A stretch of DNA of 34,568 bases, taken from positions 1 to 34,568 of IMG/VR virus record IMGVR_UViG_3300050120_000450; one strand, given 5' to 3'. A program made the position numbers and the translations under genes. Under the pieces are notes generated by a model. It was not told the origin of the DNA, ran no database searches, and saw only the letters and a list, made by a program, of their open reading frames with translations. Positions 2,915 through 34,568 of the stretch are shown here, in pieces (position 1 is the first letter of the stretch; each line of letters begins with the position of its first letter). The DNA is from a virus.

Positions 2915-3331
2915 CTATGCGACGTTCAAAGATAGATTTTTTCCCAGCGCACGGAATGCATCAGCCAACGTATCAATTTTGGTCGCGTGATGTAGATCAA
3001 CGATACGGTTCACATCTTGCGGACGTGTTCCTAACCGACGTGCCAACTCCGCGGGTTTAACTTTTTGGGCCAACATCTCATTAAGCAATAACACCTTTGC
3101 CATAATGCTAGGGGGAAGCTCGATTGACTCTTGATCTCGTTTTACTTTACTAGGCATCGGAACACTTCGTCCATCCTCAAAATAAAACTCCATCGCTGTT
3201 TCAAGTGCGTCACGCGCCATCTCTAGCGCCTCTTCTCGGGTCGGGCCAGATGTTAGCGCTTCGGGTATATCAACGAACTTAACCATCCATCCGTCGCCAT
3301 CTGCGATCAACTTTACCGGGTAATTCAACAT
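2915..3331 (-). CDS. hicB: HicB antitoxin with C-terminal DNA-binding domain
   Basis: At 138 residues this matches the length and architecture of E. coli HicB. Residues 1-65 form the degenerate RNase H-like fold (YPVKL, then VKFVDIPEALTSG, EALEMARDALETAMEFYFEDGR) that blocks the HicA toxin. Residues about 85-138 form a helix-turn-helix (KVKPAELARRLGTRPQDVNR, LHHATKID) that binds the hic promoter. An AAGGAAA site precedes ATG 3331. It should neutralise HicA and repress transcription. Unusually it is not directly behind hicA: 248 bases with a terminator and tandem repeats lie between them, so it probably has its own promoter. Confidence 0.93.
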   Translation of the reverse strand: MLNYPVKLIADGDGWMVKFVDIPEALTSGPTREEALEMARDALETAMEFYFEDGRSVPMPSKVKRDQESIELPPSIMAKVLLLNEMLAQKVKPAELARRLGTRPQDVNRIVDLHHATKIDTLADAFRALGKNLSLNVA

Positions 3332-18991: not shown

Positions 18992-19363
18992 ATGAAAACG
19001 CAAGATACCGCCCCAACCGTCGGCGCCACGGCCAATATCACCGATGCCGCGCAATCGCGCATGACGAAAGATTTCAGCGACCTCATCACGCTGGACAAGC
19101 CGGTCGAGCGAGGCAATACCAAAATCGACAGCATCACCCTACGCCGGCCGGGATCGGGCGAACTGCGCGGCGTGTCATTGATGGATTTGGCACAGGTCAG
19201 TGTCACCGCATTGATGACCGTCCTGCCGCGCATCACCATTCCTTCCCTCACAGCCCAGGAAGTCGCCCGTCTCGATCCGGCCGACATGATGCAACTCGGC
19301 ATCGAGGTGGCCTCTTTTTTGGCGACGAGAGCCGAACTGAGCAGGGCATTCCCGACCTCGTAG
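18992..19363 (+). CDS. E: Tail protein gpE (tape-measure chaperone)
   Basis: A 123-residue protein of the P2 gpE family. It is needed for tail assembly as a chaperone for the tape measure. Features are ITLDKPVERGNTKIDSITLRRP and GELRGVSLMDLAQVSV. As in P2, a T TTT TTG slippery sequence (19315-19321) lies near the 3' end, so a fraction of ribosomes should shift -1 and make a longer E+E' protein, analogous to lambda G/GT. The zero-frame product ends at 19363. Confidence 0.92.
   Translation: MKTQDTAPTVGATANITDAAQSRMTKDFSDLITLDKPVERGNTKIDSITLRRPGSGELRGVSLMDLAQVSVTALMTVLPRITIPSLTAQEVARLDPADMMQLGIEVASFLATRAELSRAFPTS
19315..19321 (+). promoter_or_regulatory. Programmed -1 frameshift site (T TTT TTG)
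   Basis: The heptamer T TTT TTG is in the correct phase for gene E (codons TTT TTG preceded by the last T of TCT). It is the same slippery sequence reported for P2 E/E'. The -1 frame continues with GDESRTEQGIPDLVEDAMAD, typical E' sequence. Confidence 0.85.
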
Positions 19364-19487
19364 AAGACGCCATGGCCGATATCGCGAGCGTATTCCATTG
19401 GGAACCGTCCGCGATGGATAAATTTTCATTAAAAACGAATTGATGGCCTGGCGTGAACGCGCCCGGCAGCGTAGCGGAGCGGAATAA
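19322..19487 (+). CDS. E': gpE' extension with an internal frame break
   Basis: After the -1 shift, the frame reads GIPDLVEDAMADIASVFHWEPSAMDKFSLKTN and stops at TGA 19441-19443. The conserved E' ending is present but in the next -1 frame: ELMAWRERARQRSGAE, stopping at 19485-19487 directly before the tape measure start. The break lies at a run of five A (19431-19435). One extra A, loss of two, or a second -1 slip on the A run would rejoin the parts. It could be a real mutation, a sequencing error or a second slippery site. The P2 homologue suggests the C-terminal end is normally present. Confidence 0.75.
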
Positions 19488-22148
19488 ATGTCGGATCGAG
19501 AACTGAAGCTGCGGGTGGTGTTCGATATGATGGACAAAATCACCAAGCCGATGAAAGCGATCGCCGGCGAATCGGCCGTGCTTGGCAAAGCCGTCAAAGC
19601 AACCAGCGATCGCCTTCACGATTTAAACAGCCAACAGCGAAAAGCCGGTCGATTCTATGAAATGCACAAAGGGCTGCAACAAACCAGACGTGATTTTTCT
19701 GCGGCACAAAAGACCGTCGACGATCTGGCCCGCACTCTCGCAAAAACAGAAAAACCAACCCGCGCATTGACGCGCGAATTCAGCGCTGCAAAGAAAGCGG
19801 CCGCAGCCTTATCCAAAAAGAGCGCCGCGCAGCGCGTCAAGATGCAGTTTCTACGCACGGAATTGCATGCAGTGGGTATCGACACCGCCGTATTTCGCTC
19901 TGCACAGGCCCGCCTTAAAGACAGCATTGCGCTAACCAATACAGAACTGGTGAATCAACAAAAGCGCCTTGCAAGCCTGGGCGCCGTACACCACGCGTAT
20001 CAAAATAGAGTCAGCCGAGCCCAGCAGCATGCGAATAAAGCCCGCCGCACCGCCGGCCACGTCACCAATGGCGGCGTGCATGCCACCGTTGCCGGCGGCG
20101 CCATGTCGCTCCCGCTAATTGCCGGCGTAAACGAAGCCAAGCAATACCAGACGGAATCCGCGCGAATCACAGCGCTCGGACTCGGCCAAAAGGTCAGCGC
20201 CGACGCTGTGGCCTACGCCAGAAGCATGAAAACCTACGGCACCAGCCACAATGAAAACCTTGAGCTGGTGCGAGACAGCATGTCGATTTTCGGAGACCTG
20301 CCGCACGCGAAAATAGTCGCGCCCACATTGGCAAAAATGAAATTCGGCAACAAGGCCATGTACGGCGAAGCGTCCGGCGAAGAGAATGAACACGCGTTCA
20401 TCGATCTGCTGAAAGTCATCGAACAGCGCGGCGGTACCGCCAGCCCGGAAGCATTCAGCCGCCAGGCCAACATGGTGCAAAAGGTCATCTCCGCCACCGG
20501 TGGCCGCGTCGGATCCAGCGAATGGCTGAACCTCCTCAAAACCGGCGGCATCGCTGCCAAAATCATGGACGACAAGTCCTTCTACTATCAGATGGAACCG
20601 CTGGTACAGGAAGTCGGCGGCAACCGCGCCGGCACCGCACTCATGTCCGGCTATTCCAACCTTTATCAGGGCCGCACCACCAAACGCGCAGTTCAAAACC
20701 TGGACAAACTAGGGCTGATCGGCGACCGCAGCAAAGTGCAAAACGACAAGGTTGGCCAGGTATCCACGCTCGGCCCTGGTGCATTGCTCGGCAGCGACAT
20801 CTTCCGGCGCAGCCAATTCGAATGGATGGAAAAAATCCTGTTGCCGCAACTGGCGAAAAACGGCATCACCGATTCAAAACAGATTGAAGACACCATTGGC
20901 GGATTGTTCTCCACGCGCACCGCCGGCAATCAATTTTTAGATTTCTATCGCCAGCGCGTACAGATCCGTAAAAACGCCAAACTCAACACGGGCGCTTACG
21001 ACATTGAGCAGATCAATACCCTCGGCCAGAGACAGGTCAGCGGCAAAGAACTCCAGGCAAAGGCCCGCGCGGCGGATTTGAAGCTGACGACAGGCGAAAA
21101 AACGAACCCTTTGTACGATAAGGCGCTGGATAAGGCATCGAATGCCATGGAGAAGCTGAACGGCTTCATGGAGCGCAATCCGAAGACCGCAAAAATCATG
21201 CTCGTGACTGTTGCTTCCCTGGCTGCCCTGCTGTTGATAATCGGCCCGCTGATGCTAGGAATTGCCTCGATGGTCGGCCCCTATGCCTTGCTTTACGTGG
21301 CCTTTGCCAAAATGGGCGTTCAGGGCGGCGTATTGACGCCGATTATCCGGGGCCTTGGGTCGGCACTGACGATGGCTGGCAGGGCAGTCCTCTGGATAGG
21401 GCGGGCGCTGCTTATGAATCCTATCGGACTCGCGATAACCGGTATCGCAGTGGCGGCCTTTCTCATTTACAAATATTGGGAGCCAATCAAGGGATTTTTC
21501 TTCGGACTTTTGGCGCAAGTCCACGCTGCCTTTTCCGGCGGTATCTCAGGTATAGCGGCACTGATCCTGAATTGGTCCCCGCTCGGCCTGTTCTATCGGG
21601 CGTTCGCCGGCGTGCTGGGCTGGTTTGGCATCACGCTACCGGCCAAATTCTCCACGTTCGGCATGAATATCATGCACGGCCTGGTCAACGGTATCACCGG
21701 CGCACTGGGGTGGGTCAAGACCACAGTGATGGACGCCGGTGCAAGCGTCATCGGCTGGTTTAAAGAAAAGCTCGGCATTCATAGCCCCAGCCAGGTATTT
21801 GCGGCCCTAGGAGATTTCACCATGCAAGGCCTGACCGTGGGCCTGCGACGCGGCGAGAGCGGCCCGCTGGCGCATGTTGCGGGCATGGCAAAGCGCATGG
21901 CCGTGCTGGGCGCCGGCATCACCATCAGCGCCACAAGCCTACCGGCTTCCGCATTCGACACCCGGCCACCGATCGGCGCGCGCGGCATCAGCGCGGTATA
22001 CGACAGCCACGACACCTATCAAATTCACATCACCGCCGCACCAGGCATGGACGCCCAAGCCATTGCCCGCGCCATATCGGCGGAACTAGACCGCCGCGAC
22101 CGTGAAAAAGCCGCACGCCGCCGTTCCTCCCTATCCGACTTCGACTAA
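19488..22148 (+). CDS. T: Tail tape measure protein gpT
   Basis: An 886-residue tape measure (P2: 815), which sets tail length and is ejected during infection. The N-terminal ~200 residues are coiled-coil (repeated Lys/Ala/Gln heptads). A globular part follows with AKQYQTESARITALGLG and FGDLPHAKIVAPTLAKMKFGNKAMYG. The second half has hydrophobic segments at about 567-600, 633-665 and 670-715, expected to enter the host membrane. The C-terminal region carries the amphipathic LGIHSPSQVFAALGDFTMQGL motif. It starts one base after the E' stop. Confidence 0.95.
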   Translation: MSDRELKLRVVFDMMDKITKPMKAIAGESAVLGKAVKATSDRLHDLNSQQRKAGRFYEMHKGLQQTRRDFSAAQKTVDDLARTLAKTEKPTRALTREFSAAKKAAAALSKKSAAQRVKMQFLRTELHAVGIDTAVFRSAQARLKDSIALTNTELVNQQKRLASLGAVHHAYQNRVSRAQQHANKARRTAGHVTNGGVHATVAGGAMSLPLIAGVNEAKQYQTESARITALGLGQKVSADAVAYARSMKTYGTSHNENLELVRDSMSIFGDLPHAKIVAPTLAKMKFGNKAMYGEASGEENEHAFIDLLKVIEQRGGTASPEAFSRQANMVQKVISATGGRVGSSEWLNLLKTGGIAAKIMDDKSFYYQMEPLVQEVGGNRAGTALMSGYSNLYQGRTTKRAVQNLDKLGLIGDRSKVQNDKVGQVSTLGPGALLGSDIFRRSQFEWMEKILLPQLAKNGITDSKQIEDTIGGLFSTRTAGNQFLDFYRQRVQIRKNAKLNTGAYDIEQINTLGQRQVSGKELQAKARAADLKLTTGEKTNPLYDKALDKASNAMEKLNGFMERNPKTAKIMLVTVASLAALLLIIGPLMLGIASMVGPYALLYVAFAKMGVQGGVLTPIIRGLGSALTMAGRAVLWIGRALLMNPIGLAITGIAVAAFLIYKYWEPIKGFFFGLLAQVHAAFSGGISGIAALILNWSPLGLFYRAFAGVLGWFGITLPAKFSTFGMNIMHGLVNGITGALGWVKTTVMDAGASVIGWFKEKLGIHSPSQVFAALGDFTMQGLTVGLRRGESGPLAHVAGMAKRMAVLGAGITISATSLPASAFDTRPPIGARGISAVYDSHDTYQIHITAAPGMDAQAIARAISAELDRRDREKAARRRSSLSDFD

Positions 22149-24030: not shown

Positions 24031-24993
24031 ATGCCCAGACTACTACTACATCAAAACGGAGTTTTGCGGCACCTTGCGTCCGTCAATGTAACGAATGACG
24101 GGTCTATCGTACTCAATTTAGTTCGCGAAGGAATTAGCGATAGCGGCTTTGTTTCGTCGCCTCATGAAAATGGTCTAGGCCCCCTTGAAGTGCGCCAATT
24201 TTCTCAACAGAAGACAAAATCGATCTCCATTCATACTAGCGGGCGAGTTAATTATCATTTTGACAGAGCCGAACCGCGCTACCTCCCCTGCTTACTTGAT
24301 CTAGATGCTCCTGTTGTCATCATCCTGTATTCGATACCTGCTGTAAAACACCTCGATCAGGTCGTCTCGCATCGCAAGGACGATCACGTCATCGAAGTAC
24401 CACAGGAACAAACGGAGAGAATTCATTTCACGTTCCAGGTATTACCCGCTGTGTTGCCTGCTCAGACCGGCGAAATTGGGCGCTTCGGTGTCGAGGGACT
24501 CTATGCGCTCTCATGGAGTGCCAGCGCGGAGGACATCAGCATGAGAATGGTCGGCGCACCGGAAGAAGTATTCACAACGCTCCGTCCAGGGGACGGACTA
24601 CCCAACCAGGCCATTTCTGAGGAGGTAGTTTTTCTTCGTTTCAAACGGGCAATGTACGCGAACGACGTGATTTCAGCTGTGAAGATGGCACCGAATAGAG
24701 ATGAAATCACCGCCCAACAAATCGAGGCGGCAATTGAGGCAGGGCCAGGAATATATCCCCCAAATTCGGAAGGCGTGTGGACCGTTCTCGCAATCGTTCC
24801 TATGCGTATCGCTCCACGCCTCGATATCGATTTTGAAGATTCTCGATATAAAGCTGAGGTGATCGAATATAAGCCCGGTGATACCCGGCTCTCAACCGTG
24901 CGCGTCCGATTCAAGGTCTTCGATGATAAAGAGAAAAAGTATGTGAAGGAGCGAGTCGCTATTAAAATGCTCTCACTTAACGCTGAGCTTTGA
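24031..24993 (+). CDS. Unrecognised 320-aa cargo protein
   Basis: I do not recognise this protein. It is soluble and predicted to be rich in beta strands, with few long helices. Visible stretches include QQKTKSISIHTSGRVNYHFD (about 69-88), VIILYSIPAVKHLDQVV and a C-terminal VRFKVFDDKEKKYVKERVAI. Sequence composition is plain and no membrane segments or Cys clusters are seen. It lies in the same orientation as the tail operon, directly after gpD, and might be cotranscribed with it, but a palindrome separates the two. No strong ribosome binding site precedes ATG 24031, which lowers confidence in the exact start. A conversion or defence role is inferred only from location. Confidence 0.6.
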   Translation: MPRLLLHQNGVLRHLASVNVTNDGSIVLNLVREGISDSGFVSSPHENGLGPLEVRQFSQQKTKSISIHTSGRVNYHFDRAEPRYLPCLLDLDAPVVIILYSIPAVKHLDQVVSHRKDDHVIEVPQEQTERIHFTFQVLPAVLPAQTGEIGRFGVEGLYALSWSASAEDISMRMVGAPEEVFTTLRPGDGLPNQAISEEVVFLRFKRAMYANDVISAVKMAPNRDEITAQQIEAAIEAGPGIYPPNSEGVWTVLAIVPMRIAPRLDIDFEDSRYKAEVIEYKPGDTRLSTVRVRFKVFDDKEKKYVKERVAIKMLSLNAEL

Positions 24994-25073: not shown

Positions 25074-25910
25074 ATGAACACTAGAAAATATGGGCATTAC
25101 ACATCTCAGTTAGGTCTTATGGGAATCGTTACCCAGAAAAAACTTTGGGCGACTAATATCAATTTCCTCAATGATGCGCACGAGTTTCTGCATGCGATCC
25201 AACTTATTAAGGATTTAATAAAGGAATCAAGTAAAAATTTTCCCACTGACCGATCGGGTTATTCGACATATCGCTCATTTATAGAAAAGGTGGAAGATGA
25301 ACTGAGTAAACTTGAGAAAAATGTTTCAGAAACTATTTTTACGATGTCATTTTCTGAAAAAACAGATCTATTGAGTCAATGGCGTGGCTATTGCCCTGCC
25401 AATAATGGATTTTGTCTTGTTTTTAATTTGGATGAGATTTTTCAAGCAATCAAATCAAAGTATCCAAATTCTTATCTAAAAGATTGCGTCTACAAAAATG
25501 CAGACAAACAAAAGGAGTTAAGAACCATTTTGAATACTCATTGGCACCGATACTCCGCCAAACATTCGCCCCGAGAAAAGGTAAAAGTATTAAACGATTT
25601 ATCTAAAGCAATAATGTTGCTAGCGTCTTACTTCAAACATCCTTCATTTTCGGAGGAGGCCGAAAGAAGAATCATAATTAATCTTGAAAATTCGAAAGAT
25701 TCAAATTTGAAATTTCGAGAAGGAAAATTTACTTTAATTCCGTATCTTGAACTTGACATACCAATCGGAGATTTAAAGAAAGTTTATCTTGGGCCGACGG
25801 CCAACACCGAACTTGCGAAACGCGCGGCGCAAATGTTCTTAAAAAACAACCTAAGTAATTCCAAAGTGCTCACCATCACAGTTTCCAAAACACCTTATCG
25901 CCCATGGTAA
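25074..25910 (+). CDS. DUF2971-like cargo protein
   Basis: A 278-residue soluble protein with the typical DUF2971 pattern: an N-terminal LWATNINFLNDAHEF (about 24-38), FTMSFSEKTDLLSQWRGY (89-106), GFCLVFN (112-118), a helical middle with KHPSFSEEAERRII (about 188-201) and VYLGPT (237-242). The molecular function of the family is not established. Members occur as single cargo genes and in defence islands, and some have been proposed as abortive-infection components. The codon use is more AT-rich than the tail genes, suggesting recent acquisition. It converges with the minus-strand ATPase operon. Confidence 0.75.
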   Translation: MNTRKYGHYTSQLGLMGIVTQKKLWATNINFLNDAHEFLHAIQLIKDLIKESSKNFPTDRSGYSTYRSFIEKVEDELSKLEKNVSETIFTMSFSEKTDLLSQWRGYCPANNGFCLVFNLDEIFQAIKSKYPNSYLKDCVYKNADKQKELRTILNTHWHRYSAKHSPREKVKVLNDLSKAIMLLASYFKHPSFSEEAERRIIINLENSKDSNLKFREGKFTLIPYLELDIPIGDLKKVYLGPTANTELAKRAAQMFLKNNLSNSKVLTITVSKTPYRPW

Positions 25911-26473: not shown

Positions 26474-27472
26474 TTATCCCGGACTAATAATTCCATTTTT
26501 TAACTGTTCATGTAACCACGAATGCATTTCTGAATATAGATCATCTTCTTTGGGTAGCCCCTTATCATCCACAGCAATTTCAATTGCACTCGATATTTTC
26601 AAATCTTTCCCGTAGACAACACTATTATCCCCTAATAGCAATTTAGTCTGATCTTCGTCAATATCGCGCAATGCGATGCCGAGGTTATCAAGCAGTTTGA
26701 TCGAGTTTTCCGCCTGAGAGCGTTGGCGCTTCGGATATCGAATTTCAATCCATACCTCTAGATTGCTATCAAATTGAGCATCTTCAAGTCCCAACTTCTC
26801 AAAACTGTCACTGTCCTTGAGCATCCCTTTCAATAGATTGACTATTTCGCCAACAGGTTTAAATTTCGTTACCCCCGTTCCTAATTTAAGGCTATCTGGC
26901 GCAGCAGATTCTGACATCAACGGCCTGCCAATCGAGACGCTTTTGACGTGGGACTTTCTAATTTTTGTTTTAGTTGCAGGCTGAGGTTCATCTTTCAACA
27001 CAAAGCCATCTTGAGCGCCCAATATATTACTTTTGGTACGAATCAACCAGGCAAGATGTTGTTCTAATGCGGACGCTCTCAGCGCTACGCTCTGAAGGAT
27101 GACGACGTGATTTTTGTACAATCCAAAATACAAAACACCCGGAACATATTGCTGTTGCACTTTATTAATCACGGGCGGGCTGACTGCGCTTAGGGCTAAA
27201 TTTTTCGCCGTTGGATTATCGCTAATCACGGTCTGAAAACTTCCTCGCTCAAATACGACAAGTTGCCCAAACAAAAACCCTTTACTCTCGACGTACCGAC
27301 TGATTACCCGCAGCTCCTTCGCATCAGCCCCAAGTGTTTCCAATCGATCTTGGACATACACATGTTTAGATAATGCATCTGCGGCCATCTGCTGCAGCGT
27401 CCGCTTTTGAGGAGAGTTGAATTCAGCTTTTCTGTAATAGATTTTTCTTTTTGCGGTGTTCGTTTTTGCCAA
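26474..27472 (-). CDS. Unrecognised 332-aa middle protein of the ATPase operon
   Basis: I do not recognise the family. It is soluble and looks two-domained: residues 1-150 (with VLYFGLYKNHVVILQS at 113-128 and a following helix ASALEQHLAWLIRT), a Lys/Pro-rich linker, and a C-terminal alpha/beta part (about 205-332) with LEVWIEIRYPKR. The TTG start at 27472 is supported by a GGAGA site eight bases upstream. It lies 69 bases after the ATPase gene and two bases before the membrane-protein gene. Its size and place suggest a partner or sensor for the ATPase. Confidence 0.7.
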   Translation of the reverse strand: MAKTNTAKRKIYYRKAEFNSPQKRTLQQMAADALSKHVYVQDRLETLGADAKELRVISRYVESKGFLFGQLVVFERGSFQTVISDNPTAKNLALSAVSPPVINKVQQQYVPGVLYFGLYKNHVVILQSVALRASALEQHLAWLIRTKSNILGAQDGFVLKDEPQPATKTKIRKSHVKSVSIGRPLMSESAAPDSLKLGTGVTKFKPVGEIVNLLKGMLKDSDSFEKLGLEDAQFDSNLEVWIEIRYPKRQRSQAENSIKLLDNLGIALRDIDEDQTKLLLGDNSVVYGKDLKISSAIEIAVDDKGLPKEDDLYSEMHSWLHEQLKNGIISPG

Positions 27473-27541: not shown

Positions 27542-29011
27542 TCAATCTTTCAATAGTGCTGATACCCTCTCTGCAAGTGCATTACAAAATTCTGGATTGT
27601 TGCGAACCCATAGTGCTAGGAAGGCTCCCCGGACGATTGCTTCAGGAACAAAATTAATTTTCACCCCAAGCTGAGTGAATAATAGATGCGGATCTCGGTT
27701 TGTACGCGCCACCTCCTCTATTGCGCCTTGGACCAATGGTTGACTTTCAGGAGGCCTTTGACAGGAAACGGTCAAGATCGCGATATCTGTTGCTAAACGA
27801 TCTCGTATTGACTCAAAAATCGACAACTCGGGCTGTTTTCCTGGCAAACGCATAACCCCAACGGATAAGTCATCTTGCTGCGACGAATCGCCATCGATTA
27901 TGCACAACGATTTAAAGTTGATAGCAGGATTATTCATGTGACCTCGGTGCGTCATCACAGCATTGCCATCTCCATTCACCGCGTGTATTTCAACCTGATC
28001 GTAATCAACACCGAGCTTCTCGCGAAGTATGCTGTCGACCCATGATTTGGCAAACTCATCCTCAAGAAAAATAACTAATTTTTTATCTACTCGACCAGAT
28101 ACTGCTCGCAATGCTTCCACCGACAACCGCCCTTGTTTCAATTTTCCATTGATGCTTGCCCAGATCGCCTCGCCAGGCAATGGTGACAATGCATAGTCAC
28201 TATGGGTAGTGAAAATTGTCTGAATAGCTCTACGAGACGCGACATCTATTAAGTATTCAACCATTCTTCGTGTTGCGATCGGATGCAGTCCGTTTTCAAT
28301 TTCTTCAATCAGAATTAAACTATTTTGTGGTGCCCGCTCAATTCGAGTGATCATACGAATAATCGATGACTCGCCAGCCCCAAAATGAAACTCTGAAAAC
28401 TTGCTATCGCCAGCATGACCAACCAAAAACGTATCTCCAGCTCCGTAGTTTGTCACTCTGTATTCCGCTACCGACTTTCCTAAAATATGCTCAACCTGTT
28501 TGGCTACTTCGGCATTAAGTGGTTCAAGCGCTGCAGTATGCTTATACGTGGATCGCATCAATTGCTTGTATCTGGCTTTCTCTCCGGCGGGGACGGTGCG
28601 CTCGATTCCAAAAAATAAAACGACTCGGTCTAGCACGTCTGCACGCACCCATTTCGTGCGTCTAAAACTAGACGTGCGTTTCGTTAATTGCTTTGGATTT
28701 GCTGTCTTGTCGATGATCTCGTATTCTACTTTCCAACCGGACATCGACTCATCTCCGACCGTACTTTTCGGGAAGAAAAATCCCGGCTTCACCGGCTTAT
28801 AAGCGCAACCAGCGACCCCGAGCACTGAAGATTTACCGCTACCGTTCGGCCCAATGAGCGCAGTTACCGGAAACTCAAAAGTTATATCTTCTTGCGAAAA
28901 ACCTCGGATTTTCTCGATACTTGCCTTGAACAAATATTTTCCATAATCATGGCGCCGGACCTTTTCCAAAAGTTGGGTTTTTTCTGAGTCTCGTATTTCG
29001 CTCTTTTGCAT
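27542..29011 (-). CDS. OLD-like ABC ATPase with TOPRIM-like C-terminus
   Basis: A 489-residue protein. The N-terminal ABC-type ATPase has Walker A GPNGSGKSS (54-62), the signature FHFGAGESS (208-216), Walker B LILIEEIE (232-239) and the switch TTHS (H270). The C-terminal ~180 residues look like a TOPRIM nuclease: E317 in VIFLEDE and a DxD at 373-375 in IIDGDS. This is the plan of overcoming-lysogenization-defect (OLD) family nucleases and of ATPases in the Gabija, PARIS and retron-Eco8 defence systems. No GajB helicase is present. The first gene of a three-gene operon, it is preceded by dyad-symmetric DNA. A DNA- or tRNA-cleaving defence role is inferred. Confidence 0.85.
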   Translation of the reverse strand: MQKSEIRDSEKTQLLEKVRRHDYGKYLFKASIEKIRGFSQEDITFEFPVTALIGPNGSGKSSVLGVAGCAYKPVKPGFFFPKSTVGDESMSGWKVEYEIIDKTANPKQLTKRTSSFRRTKWVRADVLDRVVLFFGIERTVPAGEKARYKQLMRSTYKHTAALEPLNAEVAKQVEHILGKSVAEYRVTNYGAGDTFLVGHAGDSKFSEFHFGAGESSIIRMITRIERAPQNSLILIEEIENGLHPIATRRMVEYLIDVASRRAIQTIFTTHSDYALSPLPGEAIWASINGKLKQGRLSVEALRAVSGRVDKKLVIFLEDEFAKSWVDSILREKLGVDYDQVEIHAVNGDGNAVMTHRGHMNNPAINFKSLCIIDGDSSQQDDLSVGVMRLPGKQPELSIFESIRDRLATDIAILTVSCQRPPESQPLVQGAIEEVARTNRDPHLLFTQLGVKINFVPEAIVRGAFLALWVRNNPEFCNALAERVSALLKD

Positions 29012-32776: not shown

Positions 32777-34568
32777 ACGTATCGAACTTCCTGCGCACAA
32801 GCGCCATATATTCTTTCTGCAATCGGAACGTTTTGCGCCGGAGCTCAATAACCTGCCCCATAAATGGCGTAGCCGCGTTATCCGACAGGCGCAGCAGAAA
32901 ATGGCCTGGTCATGCTGGTGGAAAATTTACGAAAAAATTGCGATCGATTTCGTTCGCGATTTCGTAGCGCGCTATGTGCCGGCCGGCACCGATTTGTCTC
33001 AGAGCGATAGCGATATTGTCAGCGGCGCCAAAAAAGCAGCCAGCACCATCGCAAGGTTGCTTTCGCTGTCGACGTCTGGCAAACATACGATGCAAATTAT
33101 CAACAGAGAGTGTGCAGACTATGGCGTCAGCGCGCCGGCTTTAAATAGTGCTTCCGCAATTATCGCCCGCGTGATCGATCCACGATGGTGGCGCCGGCAA
33201 CTGCGCTGCAAGGTGAAGCGTGCTTTTGAGGCCGGCAATATTAAATTGGGCTATGTGCGCTATCGAGGTGAACCGTATGCGAGTACGGAATGTGTGCTGT
33301 CGCGCTTGGCGCAAAACAGGCGCAATACTGCGGCGTTGGAATCGACGATTCTAGAAAACGAGAATGGTCAGCAATTCAGCGTCGCCGAACTGGCGGAGAA
33401 AACCACGGCAAATAAAGCCATTCGGCGCGGAGAACTGATGCTGCGCATCAATGGCTTCGAAGCGGTGGCGAAGGAGGCGGGAGATCAGGGCTTGTTTATT
33501 ACCTGGACGTGCCCTTCCCGTTTTCACGCGATCAGGCATGACGGGACAGAAAATCCGAACTACGACGGCTCTACGCCACGCGAGGCGAATCAATACCTTG
33601 GCAAGGTCACCTCGCTATGCCGGGCGGCGCTTGCGCGGCGTGGGATAGGGTTATATGGCTTTCGCATCGCCGAACCGCATCACGATGCTTGTCCGCATTG
33701 GCATTTGTTGATGTTTGTGCGGCCAACGGAAAAATATAAGTCGCATCACGTCCGGGATATCGCAACGCGCACGATTCGGCTGATGAAGCGGTATGCCTGG
33801 CGCGCCGATCGTGGCGAACCTGGAGCGTTTGCGCGGCGGCTGGATGCAAAGCGGATCGACTGGAAGATTGGTAGTGCCACCGGGTATCTGATTAAGTACG
33901 TTGCCAAGAATATCGACGGTGTTGCCGAGCATAAGACGATTGAGGGGTATACGGTCGTCACCGACATGGCGGGTGATGTTGAGCTGGTGCCGTCTGCGCG
34001 TGTCGAGGCTTGGGCGTCTTGTTGGGGTATTCGCCAGTTCCAGCAATGGGGTGGCGCGCCGGTGACGGTTTGGCGAGAGCTACGGCGGGTCGAAGCCGAT
34101 ATGGTGCAGCACGCGCCGGAATCGATGCAGCGCGCCTGGGACGCTGTTCAAAAGATAGAAGGTGAAAAGCGCGCTTGCTGGGCGAGTTATCTGAAAGCGC
34201 AAGGCGGCGCGCTGGTGCCTCGCAAAGAGCTGGTCATAACGCTGGCGAAAGACGAGAAGACGGTGATTGGGCGGTATGGTGAAACGGTCCGTGTTACGCC
34301 GTATGGCGTGCGCTGTGCGCATTTAACCGGGGTTGTGTTTAAGTCGGTGCGCCATACGTGGACGCCGATCAGCATCACAAGCGATGGCGCCGGGGGTGGT
34401 TTTCCTTGGACTCGTGTAAATAACTGTACGCAGCCGGATTTCGATTATCGATCGAAACCGGTGTTTTCGATCGAGCCGGAGCTTGATGATCTGGCGAAAA
34501 CCGATGTTATCCGGGCCTGGGCGGCGGTGAATGCCTGTCCTTTTCCCAGGATTGTTTTATCCCATTAA
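32766..34568 (+). CDS. A: Replication initiator gpA (rolling-circle endonuclease)
   Basis: A 600-residue initiator of the P2 gpA family (P2: 761), a HUH endonuclease that nicks the origin and becomes linked to the 5' end for rolling-circle replication. The HUH motif is H311-W-H313 in CPHWHLLMF, followed by the two-tyrosine motif Y374-L-I-K-Y378 in GYLIKYVAKNID, matching the P2 YxxxY pair. The start ATG 32766 follows an AAGGA site; an upstream alternative is not supported. It is shorter than P2 gpA, mainly in the C-terminus. The P2 origin lies inside A, so the origin here probably does too. The stop codon is the window's last base. Confidence 0.93.
   Translation: MQSKRIELPAHKRHIFFLQSERFAPELNNLPHKWRSRVIRQAQQKMAWSCWWKIYEKIAIDFVRDFVARYVPAGTDLSQSDSDIVSGAKKAASTIARLLSLSTSGKHTMQIINRECADYGVSAPALNSASAIIARVIDPRWWRRQLRCKVKRAFEAGNIKLGYVRYRGEPYASTECVLSRLAQNRRNTAALESTILENENGQQFSVAELAEKTTANKAIRRGELMLRINGFEAVAKEAGDQGLFITWTCPSRFHAIRHDGTENPNYDGSTPREANQYLGKVTSLCRAALARRGIGLYGFRIAEPHHDACPHWHLLMFVRPTEKYKSHHVRDIATRTIRLMKRYAWRADRGEPGAFARRLDAKRIDWKIGSATGYLIKYVAKNIDGVAEHKTIEGYTVVTDMAGDVELVPSARVEAWASCWGIRQFQQWGGAPVTVWRELRRVEADMVQHAPESMQRAWDAVQKIEGEKRACWASYLKAQGGALVPRKELVITLAKDEKTVIGRYGETVRVTPYGVRCAHLTGVVFKSVRHTWTPISITSDGAGGGFPWTRVNNCTQPDFDYRSKPVFSIEPELDDLAKTDVIRAWAAVNACPFPRIVLSH

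Follow-up and report, generated by a model that had tools for sequence, protein, structure and literature searches.

A second frame break near the end of a P2-type tail chaperone gene

Does the tail assembly chaperone gene of this phage carry two programmed frameshifts, or one programmed frameshift and one damaged reading frame? The window (the whole stretch of DNA that was analysed, 34568 bases of a virus record) holds a P2-type gene E with a -1 slip heptamer, and the E' frame entered at this heptamer stops early, with its conserved ending in yet another frame (Table 1). We favour, with a probability of about 0.93, an ordinary P2-type E/E+E' locus that has acquired a private frame change near the end of E', and not a second programmed slip. 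This private and apparently recent change consists of two extra nucleotides between two fixed landmarks near the E' end. It would stem either from a real mutation of the provirus, probably an inactivating one (about even odds), or from an error in sequencing or assembly (slightly less).

Table 1. Features of the E/E' locus and its neighbours (window coordinates)
Feature	Position	Strand	Description and evidence
Tube gene FII	upstream neighbour of E		PF04985
Gene E	18992..19363	+	tail assembly chaperone, 123 aa; PF10109 Phage_TAC_7, E 7.5e-14
T TTT TTG	19315..19321	+	-1 programmed frameshift heptamer; in E phase, near end of E
E' extension	19318..19443	+	-1 frame, to premature TGA at 19441-19443; PF06528 positions 1-21, E 8.7e-10
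Five-A run	19431..19435	+	likeliest break point; HW-to-W(RE) interval 47 nt versus 45 in relatives scored
Severed conserved ending	19437..19487	+	ELMAWRERARQRSGAE and stop, in next frame; PF06528 positions 21-37, E 8e-07
Gene T	19488..22148	+	tail tape measure, intact, 886 aa; phrog_28, E 5.6e-86, residues 1-884

Layout of the window and the first slip site

The first base of the window is the ATG of an integrase gene and base 34568 belongs to the stop codon of a gpA-like replication gene. The gene order is P2-like (portal, terminase, scaffold, capsid, lysis, baseplate, sheath, tube, E, T, U and D), and profile searches of the window mostly cover the core genes over most of their length with family matches. 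Because the record begins and ends exactly on genes, it suggests a P2-like provirus cut back to gene boundaries, and the record probably lacks the attachment sites.

The window also carries genes of other kinds. An AAA ATPase of 489 aa at 27542-29011 (-) matches the PADLOC candidate anti-phage family HEC-04 almost end to end (E 9.3e-216). Next to it, the product of 26474-27472 (-), of 332 aa, has matches to phrog_3482 and to related families whose function is unknown, and none to PADLOC or Pfam models. Together the two genes may form a defence cargo near the immunity region. A DUF2971 protein at 25074-25910 (+; PF11185, E 1.8e-12) weakly matches the candidate defence family PDC-S31 (E 6.1e-07), and a HicB-like antitoxin or regulator is encoded at 2915-3331 (-; phrog_497, E 2.5e-38). 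Directly after gene D lies an open reading frame of 320 aa at 24031-24993 (+) that has no PHROGs match and no Pfam match at E 0.01, with only DUF4258 at E 0.21.

Gene E sits between the tube gene FII and the tape measure gene T, an arrangement as in P2-like phages. PF10109 is found in E and is followed by the GpE domain PF06528 in the -1 frame, with the tube and tape measure genes on either side. The slip heptamer alone is frequent in the window (19 seen on both strands versus 12.6 expected); what is informative about it is its phase and its conservation, not its mere presence. We scored it in 177 distinct relatives, with loci L001, L212, L213, L217 and L218 excluded beforehand; 36 further loci gave no row, owing to the narrow motif or to unoriented genome loci being read on one strand only. 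In 176/177 of these relatives, T TTT TTN has the same phase with respect to E' and lies 70-140 nt upstream of the HW landmark. The versions are TTTTTTG (146 relatives), TTTTTTC (19), TTTTTTT (7) and TTTTTTA (4), with none in the one remaining. The RNA fold downstream of the site in the window is unremarkable (z +1.68).

Judged by phase, domains and neighbours, the first slip is the known P2-type E/E+E' programmed -1 frameshift in an ordinary locus. E+E', the rarer of the tail-assembly chaperones, would be made by a fraction of ribosomes that slip at T TTT TTG, and we infer that such slipping also takes place in this phage.

The split GpE domain and its relatives

The -1 frame does not stay open through the conserved GpE ending: it runs into the premature TGA, and the ending lies in another frame. 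PF06528 (Phage_P2_GpE, 37 positions) is divided accordingly, with residues 19-39 of the E' frame matching profile positions 1-21 and residues 5-21 of the next frame matching positions 21-37. The frame break is beyond chance because it cuts a single GpE domain in two at profile position 21. The frame that holds the ending, 19422-19487, encodes IFIKNELMAWRERARQRSGAE, and its stop TAA at 19485-19487 is immediately followed by the gpT ATG at 19488. As written, the slipped product ends in ...FSLKTN and has lost the conserved last 16 residues; such a truncated E' would presumably be defective.

Between HW and W(RE), the window has a longer interval than every relative scored (Table 1). Set against these relatives, it has gained two nucleotides net at the break rather than lost one. 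The break most probably lies in the A run, because the E' frame still agrees with relatives at F-S-L, for which the counterparts near the break are F-T-I in locus L199 and F-S-L in locus L004. An earlier note on this DNA had described an in-phase P2-type T TTT TTG, an E' frame that stops at 19441-19443 and a conserved ending in the next frame directly before gpT, and each of these observations holds up. The note had also placed the break at the five A, and this stands as the likeliest place, with TTTT at 19423-19426 as an alternative that is just conceivable.

Relatives were collected in several ways. Searches with the tube protein gave 17 loci and 2 loci, and E' alignments gave 80 loci each for two queries. 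The A1 query ranked matches by full-length E', which biases it to intact endings. The A2 query ended before the break and is free of this bias; its viral loci are the best 80 of at least 563 matches. Genome searches matched 44 of 392 genomes in the family of G001, the Herbaspirillum frisingense genome that contains locus L022, and 27 of 398 in its phylum. The A2 family loci cover 30 of the 60 matches listed, and all 29 phylum matches have loci. An E' match was present in 242 of the 245 loci (the other three are L021, and L212 and L217, for which E' was not fetched), giving 213 distinct E' sequences with the window included.

All 212 distinct relatives scored keep one frame across the break position with a constant 15-residue spacing, leaving the window as the sole interrupted row; the check reaches the second landmark, not each later residue, and part of the 212 are close kin and hence not independent. 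The 15 residues from HW to the next W were counted by script in 191 relatives. The script misread 21 rows, in which HW is replaced by GW or HC, the second W by F, or a W occurs within the spacer; read by eye, all 21 have 15 residues and are uninterrupted up to the second landmark. A narrower motif scan gave the 15-residue spacing in 183/184 sequences, the exception being the window. It found no motif in L021, L147 and L172, of which L147 and L172 are intact with GW for HW. The earlier note had named relatives with a different C-terminus as evidence that would count against its reading; the endings that we inspected have a similar C-terminus in one frame.

On present sequence data, the second break is private to the window among the relatives scored. 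A break common to the whole lineage is possible, because no near relative was found: megablast of window positions 7000-29000 against phages and plasmids gave no match, in collections that may lack records very close to the window. A search of viral contigs with E as the query gave five pattern matches, none confirmed as a relative. A gapped DNA pattern around the break returned no stretches from viral contigs, the window itself likewise not being returned.

The severed ending remains conserved over the codons compared. Mean amino acid identity to 193 relatives is 79% over the 14 codons after the break versus 70% over the 24 before, and in 160 of these 193 the similarity after the break is at least that before. 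Among codon differences, 1044 synonymous stand against 570 nonsynonymous beyond the break, and 1321 against 1391 ahead of it. L202, L203, L129 and others encode an identical ending peptide, with only synonymous differences in the 14 codons compared. Selection has probably maintained the ending peptide until recently, or still does; its DNA just before the gpT start may in part be kept for gpT ribosome binding. Conservation of the severed ending points to a lesion that is either recent or artefactual, and if it is real we infer a recent origin.

Mutation, error or further decoding

We compared the window with 1683 open reading frames of at least 60 codons from 11 relative loci, of which 573 had matches. 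Only 18 matched in more than one frame, and five of them are the E' break. Of the other 13, judged by coordinates, 11 lie antisense to genes of the window and 2 span the FI/FII junction as off-frame shadows. No second broken gene was found among the window genes with homologues in the 11 loci, to which the scan is limited, and breaks near gene ends would escape it.

An error of sequencing or assembly at the A run would account for a break that maps to a homopolymer, in the sole broken gene of the scan, with an ending that has not decayed. It would account less well for the two-nucleotide offset from relatives, as the most typical sequencing errors at homopolymers do not add two nucleotides to a short run. 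The coding strand of 28 window genes (25,095 nt, E included) also has 58 runs of at least five A, 40 of exactly five and 18 longer, and no other break was detected, which again speaks against error. A real, recent mutation truncating E+E' in a provirus would fit the two-nucleotide gain more readily. It would also suit a record that spans from an integrase ATG to a gpA-like stop like a gene-trimmed provirus; proviruses lose lytic genes. Against mutation, the scanned genes with homologues have no further sign of decay. A recent mutation or a sequence error, isolated in either case, would fit about equally well.

The earlier note had proposed a homopolymer error, an inactivating indel or a second -1 slip within one gene. 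The first two fit everything seen, and the third is unsupported. If ribosomes made another programmed -1 slip at the A run, the E' frame would be joined to the conserved ending and the gene read in three frames, and the frame order does run E, E', ending as -1 then -1. Conservation of the ending persists in the window, by inspection the P-site AAA can re-pair to AAA, and a single break in an otherwise intact provirus would also be expected of extra decoding confined to a lineage. However, the break occurs in 0 of the 212 distinct relatives scored, and the slip would produce a 16-residue spacer in place of their invariant 15. The heptamer is also non-canonical: by inspection, A AAA ACG has no A-site re-pairing and is not of the X XXY YYZ type. 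The downstream fold does not stand out (z +0.60), with 145 of 200 shuffled sequences folding as well or better, although a stimulatory structure is common but not required for a -1 site and P2's own site has none. We consider a second programmed slip very improbable.

Further copies of the motif point the same way. An identical in-phase A_AAA_ACG lies within gpT at about 21098, and the gene is single-frame on both sides of it. This copy argues against strong slipping at the motif, but not against low-level or trace slipping. Another A_AAA_ACG at the very start of the 26474-27472 open reading frame carries less weight, the true start being uncertain. It would take a highly unlikely course of events for the chaperone gene of this lineage to be read in all three frames, with a second -1 slip rescuing a recent indel and giving three chaperone lengths.

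The TGATG at 19441-19445, in which the TGA overlaps an ATG in the frame of the ending, could in principle allow stop-start coupling, where translation restarts and makes a separate 14-residue peptide, MAWRERARQRSGAE. By eye, no Shine-Dalgarno-like stretch is evident just upstream, and relatives scored have the second landmark within E' itself. To our knowledge, a free 14-residue peptide has no precedent in this family. We regard such coupling as extremely improbable. A direct +1 route from E into the frame of the ending was rejected: a stop keeps that frame closed until 19422, and E already ends at 19363.

Transcriptional slippage at the break was also rejected, the run of five A being below the lengths of more than 7 A or more than 8 T to which the available part of PMC3711429 links such slippage. 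The same part suggests slippage for dnaX genes with 7 to 9 A as well, and reports 10% shifting measured with a 7-A cassette. Multiple shifts in one gene have been described elsewhere: the portion of PMC5009743 consulted mentions certain retroviruses with two -1 shifts, a Euplotes gene with at least two shifts and mitochondrial genes with ten or more, and that portion names no phage gene with multiple shifts. Among the papers listed by our literature search, none concerns a second slip in a tail chaperone gene.

Significance and comparison with known systems

The first slip site is one more case of a known and widely conserved decoding event. Under the preferred reading of a private mutation or error, the second break matters only as a caution, in that an isolated indel at a homopolymer can mimic recoding. 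The constant 15-residue GpE spacing offers a quick test to tell a lesion from a real frameshift site. A double slip, if true, would make this an unusual phage gene read in three frames.

The E/E+E' programmed -1 frameshift of phage P2 was reportedly described by Christie et al. in 2002. The excerpted text of PMC3091744 places the P2 -1 shift at TTTTTTG, describes the site as apparently conserved in KS5, KS14 and KL3, and predicts no downstream hairpin. As far as that text goes, the window resembles P2 in its T TTT TTG, its -1 shift, the location of the site beside the tape measure gene and its E and GpE domains, and no downstream hairpin is expected at its first site. It is unlike P2 in having the E' frame broken near its end. 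The Burkholderia phages KS14, KL3, Carl1 and FLC10 share the gene order and the E/E+E' layout, which in their case is annotated as a joined CDS, but their E' is uninterrupted (KS14 scored to the second landmark). The Herbaspirillum prophages (L022 and L023) are similar to the window in the tube (62% identical) and the tape measure (57% identical), whereas their E' is intact, with endings ...LADLMKWRERARVRSGAE.
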